Shown here in pieces: positions 1 to 57,010 of a stretch of DNA of 61,870 nucleotides. The notes below the pieces were generated by a model. It searched no databases. It was not told the origin of the DNA and was given only the letters and a program-made list of their open reading frames with translations. How positions within the stretch are numbered: the first letter of the stretch is position 1; the number at the start of each line of letters is the position of its first letter. The translations under genes and the position numbers were made by a program. The DNA comes from Pseudomonadota bacterium (GTDB taxonomy: Bacteria > Desulfobacterota > Desulfobulbia > Desulfobulbales > Desulfocapsaceae), in NCBI GenBank assembly GCA_018820855.1, contig JAHJNL010000101.1, positions 1 to 61,870 of the forward strand. Direction: 5' to 3'.

Positions 1-2058
1 CTCCACGTTGGCGCCGTCCAGAGTACCGATGGTGAGCGCTCCATTCATGGAGAACTTCATGTTGCCGGTACCCGAGGCTTCTTTGCCTGCCAGGGAAATC
101 TGTTCCGAGAGGTCGGTCATGGGGTAGACAGTATGGCCGATTTTGACATTATAGTTGGGGATAAAAAATATCTTCAGCCGGTCTTGCAGGTCAGGGTCGT
201 TGTTCACCACTGCAGCCACCGAGGTGATCAGTTTAATCATCCGTTTGGCCATGAAATAGCCTGGTGCTGCCTTGCCGCCAAAGACAAAAAGGCGGGGAGG
301 GATATCGATATCCGGGGTTGTTTTGATCCGGTTGTAGAGGGTGATGATATGGAGGACATTCATGTGCTGGCGCTTATACTCATGGATCCGTTTTACCTGG
401 ACATCGAACATGGCCTTTGGGTCAACAGCCATGTTTTGGCTTTGCAGGATCAGGTCGGCAAAATCCTGCTTGTTGTCCTCTTTGACAGTGCGCCAAGCAT
501 CGAGGAATGAAGCATCATCTGCCAATTTTTCCAAAGCGTTGAGTTCATCCAGGTGGGTGAGCCAATTTTCACCGATGGCCTCAGTGATCAACCGGGTCAG
601 GCGAGGATTGCTCACTGCAATCCAGCGTCTTGGCGTAACCCCATTGGTGATGTTGCGGATTTTACCAGGGTACATGCTGTTCCAGTCAGCAAGGGTGTGT
701 TTGCGCAGGAGATCCGTGTGCATGGCGGCCACCCCGTTAATGGCCTTGGAACCAATGCAGGCAAGGTTTGCCATGCGTACATACCTGGCGCCGGACTCAT
801 CAATAATGGACATCCGGCTTAAGCGGCCCTTGTCACCTGGATATTTGATCCGGACTTCATCCAGGAAACGTTGATTGATCTCAAAGATGATTTCCAGGTG
901 TCTGGGCAGGAGGCTGCCGAACAGGTCAAGCTGCCATTTCTCCATGGCTTCGGGCAGCAGGGTGTGATTCGTGTAACACAAGGTTTTACATGTGATATCC
1001 CATGCCTTATGCCAATCGTAGAGATGGACGTCTACCAGGAGTCTCATCAACTCCGGTACTGCCACTGCAGGATGGGTGTCATTGAGCTGAACTGCGAAAT
1101 AATCATAGAAATTATCCAGGCTGTCCTGAGTGAACAGATGGATACGGATCATATTTTGCAGGGAACAGGAAACGAAAAAGTATTGTTGTTCCAGTCGCAG
1201 TTGCTTGCCAAGAAATTGTTCGTCATTGGGGTACAGGACCTTGGTAATGGTTTCTGCGCTGATTTTATCTTCCACGGCCCCATAGTAGTCGCCGGTGTTG
1301 AAGTCTTCAAAGTCAAAGGAGGTGTGAGCCTCGGCGCTCCAGAGGCGTAGCAGGTTGATATTGTTTACTTTGTATCCTGGGACAGGTGTGTCGTATGGGA
1401 TTCCGGTGATCACCCGGGCAGGGATCCAGCGTATCCGGCGGTTTCCCCGTTCGCCATGGTACACTTCGCTGTGGCCGCCAAATCCCACATCACAGGCCAT
1501 GTCCGGTTTCTTGATTTCCCAGGGATTGCCGGGGTGCAGCCAGCGGTCGCTGAGTTCTTTTTGCCAGCCGTCTACAATTTCCTGGTCAAACATGCCGTAT
1601 TCGTAACGGATTCCATAGCCAATGGCTGGAATCTGTAGGGAGGAGAGTGAGTCCAGATAGCAGGCAGCAAGGCGTCCCAGCCCGCCGTTGCCCAGGCCGG
1701 GTTCTTCTTCATGGTCGATTAGTTCTTTGAGATTCAGCCCGCTTTCATTTGCAGCTTGTTCAAAGTCATTATAGAGACCAAGGTTGATCAGGTTATTATG
1801 CAGATGAGGGCCCATGAGGAATTCTGCAGAGAGATAGCAGACAATCTTGGAATCCTTGTCCAATAGAGCCTCCACCGAATTGACAAAGAGATGCTGCATC
1901 TGGTCTCGAAGGGTGTAGGATACTGCAAGGTAATAGTCATTCAAACCTGCTGTCCTGGTGGTGACTCCCTGCTTGTAAAAAAGATTGTAGGCAAAGGCAC
2001 GTTTCAGCTTGTTGATGCGTTCTTGTTGGCTGTCAGTTGTATTTTTTGAAGAACTCAT
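1..2058 (-). CDS. glgP: Glycogen/starch/maltodextrin phosphorylase, C-terminal part outside window
   Basis: Cytosolic PLP enzyme that cleaves alpha-1,4-glucan with phosphate to glucose-1-phosphate. The reading frame runs open from an ATG at 2058 to the window edge, giving 686 codons of an expected 810-850. The start is supported by GGAGG eight bases upstream of the ATG. Recognisable family blocks include EEEPGLGNGGLGRLAACYLD near the N-terminus, TNGVTPRRW, VKRIHEYKRQ and, just before the edge, EASGTGNMKFSMNG, whose lysine is the PLP Schiff-base residue of the family. The missing end should be about 130-150 residues of C-terminal domain. All plus-strand frames across 133-1638 are shadows. The gene stands downstream of the M48 protease gene on the same strand, with a gap of about 217 bases. 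Confidence 0.97.
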   Translation of the reverse strand, partial: MSSSKNTTDSQQERINKLKRAFAYNLFYKQGVTTRTAGLNDYYLAVSYTLRDQMQHLFVNSVEALLDKDSKIVCYLSAEFLMGPHLHNNLINLGLYNDFEQAANESGLNLKELIDHEEEPGLGNGGLGRLAACYLDSLSSLQIPAIGYGIRYEYGMFDQEIVDGWQKELSDRWLHPGNPWEIKKPDMACDVGFGGHSEVYHGERGNRRIRWIPARVITGIPYDTPVPGYKVNNINLLRLWSAEAHTSFDFEDFNTGDYYGAVEDKISAETITKVLYPNDEQFLGKQLRLEQQYFFVSCSLQNMIRIHLFTQDSLDNFYDYFAVQLNDTHPAVAVPELMRLLVDVHLYDWHKAWDITCKTLCYTNHTLLPEAMEKWQLDLFGSLLPRHLEIIFEINQRFLDEVRIKYPGDKGRLSRMSIIDESGARYVRMANLACIGSKAINGVAAMHTDLLRKHTLADWNSMYPGKIRNITNGVTPRRWIAVSNPRLTRLITEAIGENWLTHLDELNALEKLADDASFLDAWRTVKEDNKQDFADLILQSQNMAVDPKAMFDVQVKRIHEYKRQHMNVLHIITLYNRIKTTPDIDIPPRLFVFGGKAAPGYFMAKRMIKLITSVAAVVNNDPDLQDRLKIFFIPNYNVKIGHTVYPMTDLSEQISLAGKEASGTGNMKFSMNGALTIGTLDGANVE

Positions 2059-2275
2059 ACAAAACCTCCAGAAGAAATGATTTCATTGCCTGTCTGCATG
2101 GCAATTAGGGCTGGTGTGAAAGAGTTGCGGCTGGAATAGCTCCTTTGTCTGTCAACGAGTAGTGTGGGTTCAAAACACATTGGGTGAGAGATTGTGAGTT
2201 TGATTGTAGCATAAAAGAGTCTGTGTTGTAAGTTTGTTGTCCTCTTTGTGGGTGGATTATTGTTAGGGAGTGTAG

Positions 2276-4183
2276 TCACATTTTCTCATTGCTTCTTTTC
2301 AGACTTGTTTCGTAGTCGCTATTGCTAAACTTTCTGATTTGTTGCTGGTAATATTCGCTTTGCTCAGGATCAACGAAGATGGCCTGTTTTTCAGTCTCTA
2401 TTGCCTCGTTGAAAAGATTGTTGGCCCAATAAGCAGTGGCCAGGGTGTCCAGGACATGGCCGCGGGGTTCGAGCATGGCTGCGGATCTTGCCAGCTTTAA
2501 TGCCCTCAGAGGATCACGCAGTTCCAGCTTCTCGCTTGTCAGCAGCAGCCAGGAGAGATTGTTGAGTATCTCCGGGTTTGATGGTTCCAGGAGCAGGGCT
2601 TTTTCGTATGCCTGCAGGGCCTTTTTCTCCATTTTTTTGTACTGCATCAGGTCGCCGGCAAGGCGCAGCCATAGGGCCTTGTCCGGCTCATGCATGAGTT
2701 TCTGGTCAATAATGTATTCTGTATATTTCTCTTCATACATTTTTTCCCAGGTGTCGGAGGGGAGCAGACTCTGTCCAAAGGCCAGAGCGCCTAATACCAG
2801 AAGGTAGGTGAGCAGGCAGAGGCGTACTTTTCGGTTGTGACGGCGAATCCAGGCAGGGTTAGCCTCACATTTTTCCAGGTAATCGACACGCTGACCTATT
2901 CCAAAATGATGCCAGCTCGGCAGGTCTCTGGTATTCCCTGAAAGAATGGCAATTTTTTCAAAGGCGGAGATGATGGAATGACTGGAGCCGAGTGCCTCAA
3001 AGACGTGAAGGTCGGCCTGGCGCTCAAAATTTCGAATGAAAAAACCGAACAGATAACGGAAGTAGAGGACCATGAGGCTAAGTGTGGTGGTCGTCATCAT
3101 GACAGTGAGCACGGTTTCTGGTGTTTGTCCTGTCTTCTGCAGCAGAAGGTAAAAAATGTCTTTGGAAAGGACGAAAAAGGTGAATGGCTCCAGGACAAAT
3201 CCGGCAATTATGCTGAAGCCGGCTATGATCAGGAGATAGAGGAGCATATGTTTTCTCTTGATATGGCCTATTTCGTGGGCCATCACCGCGTCGAGTTCAT
3301 CCAGCGTCAGGGTTTCCAGTAGTGCGGGTGTAATAAGGACATAGCGTAGGCCGGGAATGATTCCCATGACTCCTGCTGTCAGAACCCTGCCTTCAAATAG
3401 AGGCCAGAGGTAAATTTGGGCTGAAAAACGCTGTTTTTTGAAAAAGGAGTGAAGATGATCATGCAGAGGGCCATGCGGGAAGGGAATGCAGCCCCAGAGC
3501 CGACGAATGAGAGGAGGGAAAAAAGTCAGGACCAGAATCAGGAAAAGGATAAAGGAAAAATATTCCCCTGTTTGGGAATGAAAGAAGGCCTTGAGTCCGG
3601 GAAAGGGGAGCAGGGCCAGGATGTCGTATACAAGGGTGAGAAGGATCCAGGGCAGAACAATCGGCAGGTTTGTCCTGATATTGGATGAGAGAAAGGCCAG
3701 TGTCGTATAGCTGCGCCCAAAGGCTGTCTCATAAGTTGATCGTGCCCGCCGCCACATCAGGCTTAAAAAGAGGACAAAGAGTACGAGTCCGCCGATATTG
3801 GTCAGAGAAGGAAGCTGTCCTCCCAGAGAGAGTGGTGTCAGGTAGTAATGGATATCGCAGAAATAAAGGGCAGCAGAGTAGAAGAGCAGGGCCAAAAGAG
3901 AGAGCCGCTTTTCTGTACTGAAATAAGCAGAGGATCCTTTGCCCTTGCTTCTTGAAAAAAATCTCCTGGAAATAAGGTCATAGGAAAAAAGAAGACAAAA
4001 GAGTATAATAAAGGAAGTTGAGAAGTGAAGCAGGGGCTCATTCGAGTCGCCGGTGACAGTAAAGAGAAAGATGGCGACGAGGAAATAGAGAAGGTTGTTG
4101 TAGATCACTGTTGATCGTACTCCATGGAGAAGTGAGTGGGGGGAAAGCGTATGCAGTGCGCGGTAGTAAAGGTTTTGAAACAA
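2276..4183 (-). CDS. M48-family membrane metalloprotease with C-terminal TPR repeats
   Basis: A 635-residue integral membrane zinc protease of the Ste24/HtpX/BepA superfamily. About six hydrophobic segments fill residues 28-225. The zinc motif HEIGH is at residues 303-307, inside DAVMAHEIGHIKRKH; two further hydrophobic segments follow (about 315-375), then FERQAD, which supplies the third ligand glutamate. Residues 480-620 form TPR-like helices (ALQAYEKALLLEPSNPEILNN and AIETEKQAIFVDPEQSEYY), as in BepA-type proteases acting on envelope proteins. The open frame starts with TTG at 4183 and no in-frame ATG lies near, so the start is uncertain. It is a single gene, and its substrate cannot be told from sequence. 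Confidence 0.9.
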   Translation of the reverse strand: MFQNLYYRALHTLSPHSLLHGVRSTVIYNNLLYFLVAIFLFTVTGDSNEPLLHFSTSFIILFCLLFSYDLISRRFFSRSKGKGSSAYFSTEKRLSLLALLFYSAALYFCDIHYYLTPLSLGGQLPSLTNIGGLVLFVLFLSLMWRRARSTYETAFGRSYTTLAFLSSNIRTNLPIVLPWILLTLVYDILALLPFPGLKAFFHSQTGEYFSFILFLILVLTFFPPLIRRLWGCIPFPHGPLHDHLHSFFKKQRFSAQIYLWPLFEGRVLTAGVMGIIPGLRYVLITPALLETLTLDELDAVMAHEIGHIKRKHMLLYLLIIAGFSIIAGFVLEPFTFFVLSKDIFYLLLQKTGQTPETVLTVMMTTTTLSLMVLYFRYLFGFFIRNFERQADLHVFEALGSSHSIISAFEKIAILSGNTRDLPSWHHFGIGQRVDYLEKCEANPAWIRRHNRKVRLCLLTYLLVLGALAFGQSLLPSDTWEKMYEEKYTEYIIDQKLMHEPDKALWLRLAGDLMQYKKMEKKALQAYEKALLLEPSNPEILNNLSWLLLTSEKLELRDPLRALKLARSAAMLEPRGHVLDTLATAYWANNLFNEAIETEKQAIFVDPEQSEYYQQQIRKFSNSDYETSLKRSNEKM

Positions 4184-50667: not shown

Positions 50668-52263
50668 ATGGAAATTTTCTCAATCACGACACAAATTCTC
50701 GGTGGACTCGCTCTGTTTCTCTTCAGTATAAACAGGCTGAGCTCCACCCTCAAGAAAATCGCCGGTGTCAGGCTCAAGCAGATTCTCCAAAAAGCCACCG
50801 CTAACCGTTTGCTTGGTGCTGCCACCGGCACCCTTGTCACCTTCTTTGTCCAGAGCTCTAGCATTACGGTGCTCTTGCTCTTGGGCATGGTCAACGCCGG
50901 AGCCCTGAACCTCAGGCAGGCTGTCTATGTCATCCTTGGTTCTGAAATCGGAACGACCATTACTGCCCAGATCGTGGCTTTTAAAGTCAAGATGCTGTTC
51001 TATCCCCTCCTGATGGCTGGTTTTCTTCTGTTTTCCCTTGCCGGCAAGGAAAAACAGAGGAATCTCGGTGAAATACTGTTCAGCCTGGGGCTGATATTCC
51101 TTTCTATGAAATTGATGACTGACGGTTCCCGGCCGTTGCAGGATTTTCCGCTGGTGATTGATGCCTTCAGCAGTTTCGGTGCCTTCCCCTTTATCGGTAT
51201 TCTTGTTGGCGCAATATTCACCTCTGTCACCAGCAGCAGCTCGGCGACAACGAGCCTGATTATCGCCATGGGCATGGAAGGAGTGATTGATCTGCGCTCA
51301 GGTATTGCCCTGATGATCGGAGCAAATATCGGTACCTGCACTCTGGAGTTGATAGCCTCGATAGGCACCAACGTCACAGCACGGCGAACAGGAATGGCCC
51401 AGTTTCTCATCAATATAATCGGAGCCCTGCTTTTTTACCCATTCATCAATTCCTTTGCAGAAATTGTTTCACATACGGCTCATGAACTGCCGCGTCATCT
51501 TGCCAACGCCCATACCCTGTTCAATCTTTCGGTCAGCCTCATACTCATGCCCTTTGTCGTCCCCCTTATAAAGATCCTTGAAAAGATCATTCCCGGCAGG
51601 GAGCGATCTGAGGCGGAAACTTACGGTATCCTCGACGAAAGGTTTCTGAAAGTACCCTCTCTTGCCTTGATGGAGGCGGAGGAAGAGGTTAACAGAATGG
51701 CGGCAATCACCAAGGAAATGCTCAAAGCTGCCAGACAGGCGTTTTTCCTGCGCAATAAAGATGCCCTGAAAGCCGTATTGGAAAATGAAAGGGCTGTGGA
51801 TATGATTTATGAAAAAGTTGGAAATTATCTCAGTCAGATCAGTACAATCATGCTCAGTGAACAGGATAGAAGAAAAAAAAGATCTTATATTCACGCCATT
51901 GGGGATATCGAACGGATTGCGGATCTTGCTGAGAATCTTGCCGAATATGCCGGTCAGAAAGACGCTGTTTTTTCCGACACGGCGCTCAGGGAGATTGAGA
52001 GACTTTTCGACAAAACCGAGCAGATATACAGTGCGGCCATCAATTCATTAAAACAGCACAGGAAGTCTCTCGTGCTTGATATTACCCGTATGGAAGAGTC
52101 GGTGGATACGCTTGAAGAAGTATACAGAAAAGAATTTATTCGGAGAATGCAAACAGATCTGATCATACCGGCTAAGGATGCCATGTACCCAAGAATCCTG
52201 CAGGATCTTGAAAGAATAAGCGATCATGCAAACAATATTGCCGAACACGTTATGAAAATGTAG
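50668..52263 (+). CDS. Na+/phosphate cotransporter (NptA/YjbB-like) with PhoU domain
   Basis: 531 residues. Two copies of the Na/Pi membrane repeat: QSSSITVLLLLG near residue 62 and SSSSATTSLIIAMG near 190, each a signature serine cluster, among about eight hydrophobic segments up to 305. The C-terminal 220 residues form helical PhoU-like domains (for example EKVGNYLSQISTIM and RISDHANNIAEHVMKM). Probably exports or takes up phosphate with sodium. Isolated gene, weak ribosome site. Confidence 0.92.
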   Translation: MEIFSITTQILGGLALFLFSINRLSSTLKKIAGVRLKQILQKATANRLLGAATGTLVTFFVQSSSITVLLLLGMVNAGALNLRQAVYVILGSEIGTTITAQIVAFKVKMLFYPLLMAGFLLFSLAGKEKQRNLGEILFSLGLIFLSMKLMTDGSRPLQDFPLVIDAFSSFGAFPFIGILVGAIFTSVTSSSSATTSLIIAMGMEGVIDLRSGIALMIGANIGTCTLELIASIGTNVTARRTGMAQFLINIIGALLFYPFINSFAEIVSHTAHELPRHLANAHTLFNLSVSLILMPFVVPLIKILEKIIPGRERSEAETYGILDERFLKVPSLALMEAEEEVNRMAAITKEMLKAARQAFFLRNKDALKAVLENERAVDMIYEKVGNYLSQISTIMLSEQDRRKKRSYIHAIGDIERIADLAENLAEYAGQKDAVFSDTALREIERLFDKTEQIYSAAINSLKQHRKSLVLDITRMEESVDTLEEVYRKEFIRRMQTDLIIPAKDAMYPRILQDLERISDHANNIAEHVMKM

Positions 52264-52329: not shown

Positions 52330-54660
52330 TCACATCTTGGCGGCCATCATTTTTACCTGGCTATTCAGAAGCCTGTTCATCCGTTCCAGATAACGCTCCA
52401 CAGGAAGTTGCCGTAGAGAAGCAAGGTTGACTCGTAAATTCATGGTTTGCAGGCTGGTGGCAAGACGTGGATCCGCTCCTATCTTTTCCGCCTCTTCATA
52501 CTGTTTTAATTTGATGTGGGCCTTAAGCCGCTGATTTTCCATCTCAGCACTACTGTCTGCCGCTTTCTGCAGGAATTCCAAAGCTTCTTCAGGTAATTCG
52601 TTAGCCAGCAGAACTCTGCCGGCATGTCCAAGAACAGAAGGTTCCTGAGGCAGGGAATAGGCAAGATCAAGGGCCTTTTCCTTAAAGCCGAGTTTCAGGT
52701 AATAGTTGAACAGCGCCATCAGATGGGGAAGATTGCCTGTGTAACTGTGGAGCACGGAATCACGCAACACCATAAAATAGAGATTTTTATTGTGTTTTTT
52801 CAGGTTAAACAGATCCTCAAACCTGAACATGTTGCGGGGATATTTTTCGGAAATTTTTTCAATGTTGGTATAAACCACGGGTTCAAGCACCTGATGCAGG
52901 TAGACCTGGAAAGAGACTTTTTGCCCAGCCAGTTTTCTGTTGCCATAATCAGCAGGGAAAATAACCTCAAATTGTGTGGCACTGCCCGCCTTTACCCCAT
53001 CCACGCCTTTTTCAAAATCTGCAAGAAGCGTTTTGTCGCCAAGAGTCGCCATGTTGAAATGACTTTCTGTCTCAGGGACAACAGTTCCGGCAAGCAGCCC
53101 TTTACAGTCAAAAATAATCCTGCAGCCTTTCCTGGCGATAGCCCTTCGTTTATTTCTGTAGCCAATAAAAGGACGGTTCAGAAATCTCTCGACTGCGGGA
53201 TCGCTGCCAAATTTTTGTCGCAGACGCAGGAAGCATTCCGCTGCCGGGCCACACTCATCAAGATGCATATAAATGCTGGCAAGCATCATGTCTGCTTCTG
53301 GTCGGGTGTCAAAATATTTTTTGTGACGGGTAATAAAACCGGCAATCGTAAACAGGTTCGTCCCATTCTTGATGTCTTCGGCAAAGTCCTTGCGGTTTAG
53401 TCGCCAGATAAGACTCATTTGGCGAATTTCTTCCTCCGTCATGCCGTCCGTTTGAAAATCACGGCAAAGACTTTGATAGGCGGGTTTGGTTATGGGCAGA
53501 GCGCTAATACCGTGCCGGACGGGATCTTCACTTATTGGAGTGCCGAAAAAGACGTGTAGTTGCTGCGAAATTGAGTTGCCGTCAATATCGACATCATGTC
53601 GTTTGACAAAATCAAGGGTTTGCTGGGCATTTTCCAATGACTCGCCGGGTAACCCGAACAGGGAAAACAACTCCACATTGATTCCGGCATTCTGGGTGAG
53701 TTTGATTGCCTTGGATAATTCATCAAGCTTCGTTCCTTTCTTGATTTTTTTCAGGATTCCGTCATGGGCTGATTCCAGGCCAAAGGCCAGAGTATGCGCC
53801 CCGGCTCTTTTCAGGAGAGCAAGCAGGTTGGCGTCAACGAGATTAGCACGTGTCTGGCACCAGAATGAGGCCCCGGGGACCTTATTGATGATAGACTCTA
53901 AAAAAGCTTCAAGGCGCTCCCGTGAATGGGCAAAATTAGGATCAGCAAACCAAAAGTCATTGATACCTTTTCCTTGCAGATGCTGCATTTCAGCGACAAC
54001 CCGATCTACAGAATGAAAGCGCACTTTCCTGCCGTTGGCGCGGGGGGTATAACAGAAGGTACAGGCAGAAGAACAGCCGCGCGAGGAGAGAAGAATTGCT
54101 CTGCTTTTTCCTCTACAATCAAACGCTTCATCTAGATAGGGGGAAGGAAGGTTGTCCAGATTCTCAGAGCCTGGACAGATTCCTGTTTCAACTATTGAAC
54201 CATTTTCCCTGCAGCAGATGCCGGCTACATCCTTGAAAGTCCTATTGCCTGCAAGGGCATTGGCAATTTCAAGCATCACGGTTTCTCCTTCTCCACGACA
54301 AAGAATATCGACCTCATTCATTTGTTCGAGGGCTTCGCCGGGCATAAAGGTTGTTTGTGGACCGCCAAGCACCACAGGGATTTCCGGGTCAATTTTTTTT
54401 GCCAAAGCGGCCCAGGCTCGTACCCTGTTGATATTTTCTTCGTAAACGGAAAAACCGATGGCCTTGGGATGCAATTCCTGCATGCAGGTATGAAAATGAT
54501 GTGGTGTAAGAGGCCGGTCTTTGTAATCACCGACTATTTGCCCGTTATAGCCGTGTTTTTTCAGATTTGCCAGGATATATCCCTGGGAAAGTGGGATAGC
54601 ATCGGAACTTTCAAAATCAGCCCACTCATTGACATGTAACAAAAGAAAATTCTCAGACAT
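52330..54660 (-). CDS. B12-binding radical SAM protein with FKBP/trigger-factor-like domain and helical tail
   Basis: 776 residues. 1-145: cobalamin-binding fold (PLSQGYILANLKK, VVLGGPQTT). 185-430: radical SAM, cluster Cys196, Cys200, Cys203 in SRGCSSACTFCYTP. 505-595: IIFDCKGLLAGTVVPE, ADFEKGVDGVKAG, FEVIFPADYGNRKLAGQKVSFQVYL, matching the FKBP-type insert of trigger factor (PxDY, LAGKxxxFxV). 640-776: helical repeats resembling TPR. The fused combination is unusual; a peptide or protein substrate may be held while the radical enzyme modifies it. It is not followed or preceded by a recognised precursor peptide gene. Next upstream, past a terminator and tRNA, are groEL and groES. Confidence 0.9.
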   Translation of the reverse strand: MSENFLLLHVNEWADFESSDAIPLSQGYILANLKKHGYNGQIVGDYKDRPLTPHHFHTCMQELHPKAIGFSVYEENINRVRAWAALAKKIDPEIPVVLGGPQTTFMPGEALEQMNEVDILCRGEGETVMLEIANALAGNRTFKDVAGICCRENGSIVETGICPGSENLDNLPSPYLDEAFDCRGKSRAILLSSRGCSSACTFCYTPRANGRKVRFHSVDRVVAEMQHLQGKGINDFWFADPNFAHSRERLEAFLESIINKVPGASFWCQTRANLVDANLLALLKRAGAHTLAFGLESAHDGILKKIKKGTKLDELSKAIKLTQNAGINVELFSLFGLPGESLENAQQTLDFVKRHDVDIDGNSISQQLHVFFGTPISEDPVRHGISALPITKPAYQSLCRDFQTDGMTEEEIRQMSLIWRLNRKDFAEDIKNGTNLFTIAGFITRHKKYFDTRPEADMMLASIYMHLDECGPAAECFLRLRQKFGSDPAVERFLNRPFIGYRNKRRAIARKGCRIIFDCKGLLAGTVVPETESHFNMATLGDKTLLADFEKGVDGVKAGSATQFEVIFPADYGNRKLAGQKVSFQVYLHQVLEPVVYTNIEKISEKYPRNMFRFEDLFNLKKHNKNLYFMVLRDSVLHSYTGNLPHLMALFNYYLKLGFKEKALDLAYSLPQEPSVLGHAGRVLLANELPEEALEFLQKAADSSAEMENQRLKAHIKLKQYEEAEKIGADPRLATSLQTMNLRVNLASLRQLPVERYLERMNRLLNSQVKMMAAKM

Positions 54661-55010
54661 GGCAGCACCCTTTTATTGCTAAATGAGAATCTGTTTTCCA
54701 CGCATGAAGGAGCAACCTGGAAGTTGCTCTTTTCCAAAGCACATATCCTGCTTTGCAGGGTTAGTTCAAGTCACTTTGAACTCTCATGTACTTGAATAAG
54801 AAACAAAAACACAAAAATAAATATTTTCAATAGAAAATTTAGATTAGCAGTCTTTTTTTAAAATTTTAATCCTCCTTGAAAAACAGGGAGGTGCTCAAAA
54901 AAGCAACGGAATATTGAGGGTGGAAAGAGGACATTGTCAAGAATATCAGGTCAATAATTTCTTACAACATGATATGCTGGAAATGATAGGCAATGAGAAG
55001 GGTAAACGTA
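54661..55010. other. AT-rich region upstream of the radical SAM gene
   Basis: About 350 bases holding the promoter of the radical SAM gene, presumably. No reading frame of note on either strand, in particular no small precursor-peptide gene is evident. Confidence 0.5.
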
Positions 55011-55060: not shown

Positions 55061-55137
55061 TGGTGGCGATGCAGGGAATTGAACCCCGGACACTACGGAT
55101 ATGAGCCGTATGCTCTAACCATCTGAGCTACATCGCC
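55061..55137 (-). tRNA. tRNA-Met (CAU), elongator type, CCA encoded
   Basis: 77-nt cloverleaf. Acceptor GGCGATG/CATCGCC, discriminator A and CCA. D arm GCTCAGATGGTTAGAGC, anticodon stem TACGG/CCGTA with loop CTCATAT, T arm CCGGG-GTTCAAT-TCCCTG. Sequence around the anticodon arm and variable region resembles known elongator tRNA-Met. It is different from the CAU tRNA at 4450-4525. Confidence 0.96.

Positions 55138-55330: not shown

Positions 55331-57010
<1,680 letters not shown>

Follow-up and report, generated by a model that had tools for sequence, protein, structure and literature searches.

We investigated a gene on the minus strand of a 61,870-nucleotide stretch of DNA (hereafter, the window; contig JAHJNL010000101.1, assembly GCA_018820855.1) from a sulfur-metabolizing bacterium placed by GTDB in the family Desulfocapsaceae. 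We found that its 776-residue product joins a B12-binding domain, a radical S-adenosylmethionine (SAM) core, and a trigger-factor-type FKBP domain set between TPR-like helices. Here, we tentatively propose that it is a cobalamin-dependent radical SAM protein modifier whose FKBP/TPR arm would hold a client, most likely a protein of dissimilatory sulfite reduction (Dsr) or a factor maturing one. The parts of this proposal differ in strength. The client is probably a protein and, given a protein client, the reaction is just as probably a methylation; a client from the Dsr system is a good possibility that falls somewhat short of an even chance. The most specific version, in which an enzyme with its own trigger-factor-like arm would C-methylate a still-unfolded Dsr protein, is rather unlikely. 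The positions of all features are given in Table 1.

Judged by its domain order, CX3CX2C motif, and predicted fold, the protein is a probable cobalamin-dependent (class B) radical SAM enzyme. The B12-binding, radical SAM, and FKBP domains all scored above their Pfam cut-offs within one open reading frame starting with ATG, which bears out the three-module protein described in an original prediction made from the DNA letters alone. The motif Cys196-x3-Cys200-x2-Cys203 named in that prediction was likewise confirmed: C196, C200, and C203, together with G294 and E296, were invariant in 40 of 40 aligned rows. These rows comprised the window protein and 39 relatives of the same FKBP-bearing long form without stops (38 of full length, and L076, which is cut by the contig start); locus L069 was excluded, and L017 was absent from the named loci that supplied them. 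The full-length AlphaFold2 model (predicted local distance difference test [pLDDT] 92.7, predicted template modelling score [pTM] 0.89; one short weak loop, residues 637-641) had its best structural matches in CysS, TokK, and TsrM, with MgmA and AprD4 next. The top NCBIfam match was ApyD (NF050148; residues 62-375), at 136.7 bits against a cut-off of 750; the MgmA family TIGR04014 also stayed below its cut-off (109.6 vs. 360 bits), and other matches below cut-off included HpnJ, BchE, and PhpK, enzymes of lipids, tetrapyrroles, and natural products. Cobalamin-dependent radical SAM enzymes of such build mostly methylate unactivated carbons. The window’s genome holds a single gene of this kind (runner-up match, 85 bits vs. 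1791), and a plasmid search returned nothing at E 1e-40.

Two loci depart from the others in the motif region. In L017 (genome G036), an in-frame gap removes approximately residues 141-257, including the whole cysteine motif, and leaves the FKBP and TPR parts intact; the gap is either an assembly fault or a non-catalytic form. In L053, which comes from the same genome region as L069, a TAG codon lies within the cysteine motif. Reading this codon as pyrrolysine was rejected, as PylS was above cut-off in 0 of 7 genomes, that of L053 included, so that a stop or a sequence error is left.

Sequence, profile, and fold comparisons firmly indicate that the trigger-factor-type FKBP assignment is not a chance resemblance. 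Pfam FKBP_C matched residues 509-586 (28.8 bits vs. cut-off 21.1, E 1.6e-6), and it matched 34 of 34 members scanned individually at E 0.01 or better. The NCBIfam trigger factor family TIGR00115 matched residues 506-603 (E 1.7e-14) with 53.5 bits, under its whole-protein cut-off of 180.2, in keeping with a match to a single domain. A profile of 34 FKBP stretches retrieved trigger factor in the PDB (1l1p, E 2.9e-17), and trigger factors ranked first in a Foldseek search with the C-terminal half. Using VIA-align, residues 500-596 were superposed on residues 150-245 of Escherichia coli trigger factor (1w26) with a Z score of 16.0 and a root-mean-square deviation of 1.1 Å over 96 residues at 24% identity. 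A trigger-factor- or FKBP-like segment had been predicted at residues 505-595; the superposition and the Pfam match agree with it, a non-FKBP fold was not seen, and the predicted boundaries were correct to within a few residues. A PHROGs search gave a single match, phrog_26774, which covers this FKBP part (residues 506-616). Neither the N (ribosome-binding) domain nor the C domain of trigger factor was among the 11 families that Pfam listed with E ≤ 1. In addition, the FKBP domain shares 33% identity over 91 residues with part of a 445-residue open frame in the same genome, which we take to be that genome’s trigger factor.

Within the FKBP domain, D518, F549, G559, F568, P569, Y572, and L577 were invariant in 40 of 40 rows. 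A profile alignment to trigger factor places residue n at trigger factor position n−351. Under this numbering, the equivalents of trigger factor F198, F217, and Y221 were kept in all 40 rows, that of F233 in 28, that of F177 in 12, and that of F168 in none; the window protein itself has other residues at the F168 and F177 equivalents. We take these six trigger factor residues to be the lining of the proline-binding pocket.

TPR-like helices flank the FKBP domain on both sides. Pfam TPR matches at residues 454-494 and 684-727 were each under cut-off, and residues 430-776 modelled alone with AlphaFold2 gave a pLDDT of 92.1 and a pTM of 0.87. The C-terminal helices, which had been predicted as a repeat tail, match TPR proteins (MamA, CHIP, and designed TPRs).

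A scan of the named genomes gave 57 loci. The FKBP stretch was carried by 39 of 39 aligned long-form relatives, so the co-occurrence of the modules expected from the original prediction held, and no homologue lacking the stretch was seen among them. In a tree of the core enzyme, 41 long forms stood apart from 10 short forms with a support of 100/100 (midpoint root); as the long forms make up one clade, a single fusion event is the simplest account. The short forms have no FKBP in the enzyme, and their enzyme core is 35-46% identical. Where downstream DNA was readable, the short form was followed by a separate, usually overlapping TPR gene in 11 of 11 cases (L096, L097, L099-L103, L105-L108); in L101 and L106 gene picking had merged the TPR gene with a spurious frame, and in L108 the enzyme frame is broken. 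L104, another short form, reaches the end of its contig, and L098 is likely a long form that has been truncated. TPR accompanies this enzyme throughout, either within the long form itself (in cis) or next to the short form as its own gene (in trans), and FKBP is the long-form addition. In the window’s order, 24 of 257 genomes matched at E 1e-60 or better, among them G040 (L018), which has a short form without FKBP, and G036 with its gap over the cysteine motif. The short form also occurs in Chloroflexota (L100) and in Acidobacteriota; in the Acidobacteriota sample it was found in 1 of 149 genomes (the centre genome itself) and was missing from 17 of the 18 that bear dsrA.

In the proposed mechanism, the N-terminal half would bind cobalamin, a [4Fe-4S] cluster, and SAM, and a methyl group would most likely be transferred to an unactivated carbon. 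The FKBP domain between the TPR-like helices would hold the client polypeptide, probably before it has fully folded, and the arm would feed the target residue into the active site. That the enzyme would modify an unfolded protein or a nascent chain, as suggested originally, is plausible. In lineages with informative gene order, the client pathway would be dissimilatory sulfite reduction, and the most likely client would be DsrC, DsrA, or DsrB, or a factor that matures such a Dsr protein.

The closest working model is MgmA, the methyl-coenzyme M reductase glutamine C-methyltransferase (PDB 9ccb), which resembles the window protein in its B12-binding and radical SAM halves. According to passages of PMC11796369, MgmA has a large cleft thought to take unfolded McrA, it is not present in all methanogens, and its gene clusters with mcr in some groups only; McrA also receives a thioglycine from a YcaO that is often encoded beside the mcr operon. 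The same passages give MgmA a canonical domain order and describe no FKBP or TPR module in it, whereas the window enzyme, which lies far under the TIGR04014 cut-off, would by analogy add a built-in holding arm. The PPIase (peptidyl-prolyl isomerase) domain of E. coli trigger factor has the same fold and family as residues 500-596, but the window protein differs from trigger factor in having no reported N or C domain and in the two changed pocket positions. CysS, TokK, and TsrM, cobalamin-dependent radical SAM methyltransferases, have the same cofactor architecture but act on natural-product substrates (partly as given in structure titles), and to our knowledge they carry no FKBP/TPR arm. Within the open-licence PMC literature, in which subscription journals are mostly not covered, we found neither a description of a radical SAM/FKBP fusion nor a radical SAM enzyme acting on Dsr. 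Lysine methylation of DsrC in Desulfovibrio vulgaris is described in passages of PMC3125180 and is not evidence for this enzyme.

The proposed connection with Dsr draws on gene order and co-occurrence. Reference Dsr proteins were searched against 54 loci (L055-L108; 815 kb in total, ten of them shorter than 10 kb) and, as a control, 20 loci around paralogous radical SAM genes (333 kb), with dsrA, B, C, D, and N regarded as core dsr. We found core dsr genes in 9 of the 54 loci and in 0 of the 20 control loci (Fisher’s one-sided p = 0.048). Seven dsr genes, from L074, L079, L080, and L100, were confirmed by NCBIfam, where dsrN appears as cobB; the others were assigned by similarity to those. On the tree, the nine loci represent four or five lineages (L059; L080-L082; L100; and L074, L077, and L079 with L076 beside them). 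Additionally, in genome G043, which belongs to the window’s order and lies outside the 54 loci, the C-terminal part of the enzyme gene is directly followed by dsrA, dsrB, and dsrD on the same strand. L076 comes from genome G277, where a different contig ends in a long-form fragment (its N-terminal 140 residues) that dsrA, dsrB, and dsrD immediately precede; the two fragments in G277 may be parts of one gene, and their contigs do not overlap in sequence. Across genomes, dsrA was found in 42 of 49 carriers (the genomes behind 50 of the 57 loci). Among the seven without it, G265 has dsrB, and G261, G279, and G300 have a DsrC/TusE-family gene. In Acidobacteriota, a phylum with few dsrA genes, all three carriers tested (G299, G303, and G304) have dsrA, compared with 18 of 149 genomes in a phylum sample that includes G303; this sample adds little beyond the dsrA background. 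Apart from these genes, an unnamed family of approximately 320-440 residues (c27) recurs beside dsrAB in enzyme carriers, with members in L077 and in the dsr clusters L185-L189, L191, L192, L197, L202, and L203; the L079 copy had no NCBIfam match.

Several observations weigh against a Dsr client held by the arm. The enrichment relative to the control loci is of borderline significance (two-sided p = 0.10), and related loci do not count as independent observations. The loci with dsrN alone (L059 and L076) are the weakest evidence, since cobB has a more general function as well; if they are set aside, 7 of 54 loci remain (one-sided p = 0.098). The flanks of 45 of the 54 loci, and those of the window gene, showed no dsr gene, and dsrA of the window’s genome lies on a different contig (C21). 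Three carriers (G262, G266, and G302) showed none of dsrA, dsrB, and dsrC. The clearest case against a DsrAB client is G279 (L078), a long-form carrier in which neither dsrA nor dsrB was detected, although a DsrC-family gene is present; its enzyme contig is titled a chromosome of 2.38 Mb, roughly equal to the genome in size, with runs of N in the locus, so that it may be incomplete. Because this single-contig carrier showed neither gene, we lowered our estimate for a Dsr-system client slightly, from just under an even chance to a little further below it. In the window’s order, dsrA is near-universal (229 of 257 genomes), but the enzyme is rare, with 24 of 257 genomes carrying it (one as a short form); the enzyme therefore cannot be essential to Dsr, and dsrA discriminates nothing there. 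Given its patchy distribution, the enzyme would at most refine Dsr and would not be required for it. Alignments of DsrA and DsrB (13 carrier genomes giving 17 rows, with four genomes represented twice, vs. 20 non-carrier rows for DsrA and 19 for DsrB) gave no residue that tracks the enzyme across clades, with some columns differing; as the modified residue need not vary, this leaves DsrA and DsrB as possible clients. Desulfomonile-type loci adjoin genes of the OYE family and for enoyl-CoA hydratase, and in one Desulfobulbaceae group (L061, L062, and L071, the last assigned by gene cluster only) the long form faces a squalene-hopene cyclase gene. Finally, the proline-binding pocket of the FKBP domain appears to be only partly kept; a kept fold and core with a drifting pocket fits client holding at least as well as catalysis.

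Table 1. Features of the window and of related loci (residues refer to the 776-residue protein)
Feature	Place	Positions	Strand	Basis or remark
Whole gene with stop codon, 776-residue B12-binding/radical SAM/FKBP/TPR-like protein	Window	52330..54660	-	Open reading frame, Pfam, full-length model
B12-binding domain, residues 20-132	Window	54265..54603	-	Pfam PF02310, 57.3 bits vs. cut-off 32.1
Radical SAM core, residues 192-352	Window	53605..54087	-	Pfam PF04055, 81.5 bits vs. cut-off 29.5; model matches
[4Fe-4S] motif C196xxxC200xxC203	Window	54052..54075	-	Invariant, 40/40 aligned rows
Helical TPR-like linker, residues 430-497	Window	53170..53373	-	Model helices (430-776); weak TPR_14 at 454-494, below cut-off
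Trigger-factor-type FKBP (PPIase-fold) domain, residues 500-596	Window	52873..53163	-	Pfam, NCBIfam, profile, fold
C-terminal TPR-like helical array, residues 611-776	Window	52333..52830	-	Model helices; MamA Z 14.9, CHIP Z 14.8
Conserved upstream stretch	Window	54661-54740
Na/Pi cotransporter gene	Window	50668-52263	+
tRNA-Met	Window	55061-55137	-
GroEL gene	Window	55331-56998	-
dsrN	L059			Beside TPR gene, as in dsr clusters L200-L202
dsrABDN	L074, L077, L079			L077 also dsrC
dsrN	L076
dsrC	L080-L082
dsrABNC	L100			Chloroflexota short form
c27 family member	L077	14758-16038
115-129-residue protein	L074	2208-2555		Also L075, L077, L078, L079
Second B12 radical SAM gene	L058	1367-2857		With DUF4070
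Enzyme gene with in-frame gap	L017 (G036)	1054-3078
Enzyme gene with TAG in motif	L053	1501-3813	-

The window gene stands alone, with a convergent Na/Pi cotransporter gene on one side and tRNA-Met and then groEL on the other. The original prediction had pointed to groESL across the tRNA. Both neighbors are real, but the link is not conserved: GroEL was found in 0 of 54 related loci, and a linkage to groESL was dropped. The overall interpretation in that prediction is partly supported, in its three modules, FKBP fold, and co-inheritance in homologues but not in the groESL link. Genes for MoeA and AOR on the far side are common to the two nearest relatives, L055 and L056. The stretch of approximately 70 bases preceding the start codon shows good conservation in L055, L056, and L057, and the window copy contains a GAGCAAC/GTTGCTC inverted repeat; the conserved stretch is possibly a leader or promoter. 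In an Rfam scan of the upstream region, only the tRNA was above cut-off, and a cobalamin riboswitch was not among the matches. In L058, the long form is immediately preceded, in the same orientation, by a second B12 radical SAM gene. YcaO-family genes lie beside or near the long-form gene in two lineages (L080-L082; L074, L075, and L079). YcaO was rejected as a specific partner, since PF02624 occurs in 238 of the 257 genomes of the order and so does not track the enzyme, and is a weak hint only. The prediction that no precursor peptide is nearby was partly upheld: among short open reading frames of 20-110 residues within 1 kb on either side, none was conserved past close relatives in the 22 loci compared, but a conserved protein of 115-129 residues precedes the gene in five loci. 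This protein is found in a single clade (Desulfobacterales-type loci), where it separates a CxxCxxCC-type gene from the long form, and its L077 copy has no Pfam match.

The same kind of protein modifier could have a client outside sulfite reduction, such as a ribosomal or another abundant protein, and the dsr neighbors would then reflect the general gene clustering of sulfate reducers. This is somewhat unlikely. It would account for the 45 loci without a dsr neighbor and for G279, and the YcaO-family genes near the enzyme in two lineages, widespread as they are in the order, belong to a family known from protein and peptide modification. Conversely, among the neighbor classes compared for specificity, dsr is the most specific one that recurs between distant lineages, including the Chloroflexota short form; the clusters c4 and c16 (AOR family) also recur. 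An enzyme for a small molecule (a tetrapyrrole, lipid, or other metabolite), whose FKBP/TPR arms merely dock on a partner such as Dsr or a chaperone complex, is unlikely. The matches to HpnJ, BchE, and PhpK below cut-off would suit it, as would the structural matches CysS, TokK, and AprD4, which use small or carrier-bound substrates, and the cobB-family genes (dsrN) near the enzyme in six loci. However, a trigger-factor-type domain between TPR-like helices would be difficult to account for if no polypeptide were involved, the top NCBIfam match is a peptide-modifying enzyme, and MgmA, which acts on a protein, is one of the best structural matches.

ApyD is a radical SAM protein of ribosomally synthesized and post-translationally modified peptides (RiPPs), and together with the 115-129-residue protein of unknown family it would be compatible with a RiPP maturase whose precursor is encoded elsewhere, or nearby only in some lineages. 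We regard this as improbable: the ApyD match lies far below its cut-off, no family-wide precursor was found in the 22 loci, and the 115-129-residue protein belongs to a single clade. It is more improbable still, and indeed hardly to be expected, that the protein, its radical SAM half catalytically dead, chiefly serves Dsr or other proteins as a chaperone or assembly factor. The gap in L017 and the stop in L053 are what such a protein could show, but the three cysteines, G294, and E296 are invariant throughout the alignment described above, which was made without L069 and without L017 among its source loci. We retain, tentatively, a protein-modifying enzyme with a Dsr-related client.

Protein-modifying radical SAM enzymes may need residues that are later buried in the folded client, and a fused trigger-factor-type domain would offer a direct route to study client capture before folding. 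If the client is indeed a Dsr protein, central machinery of the anaerobic sulfur cycle would carry a carbon modification for which we found no report, akin to methyl-coenzyme M reductase in methanogens. Dissimilatory sulfite reduction, like methanogenesis, would then be subject to B12-dependent post-translational modification in some lineages.

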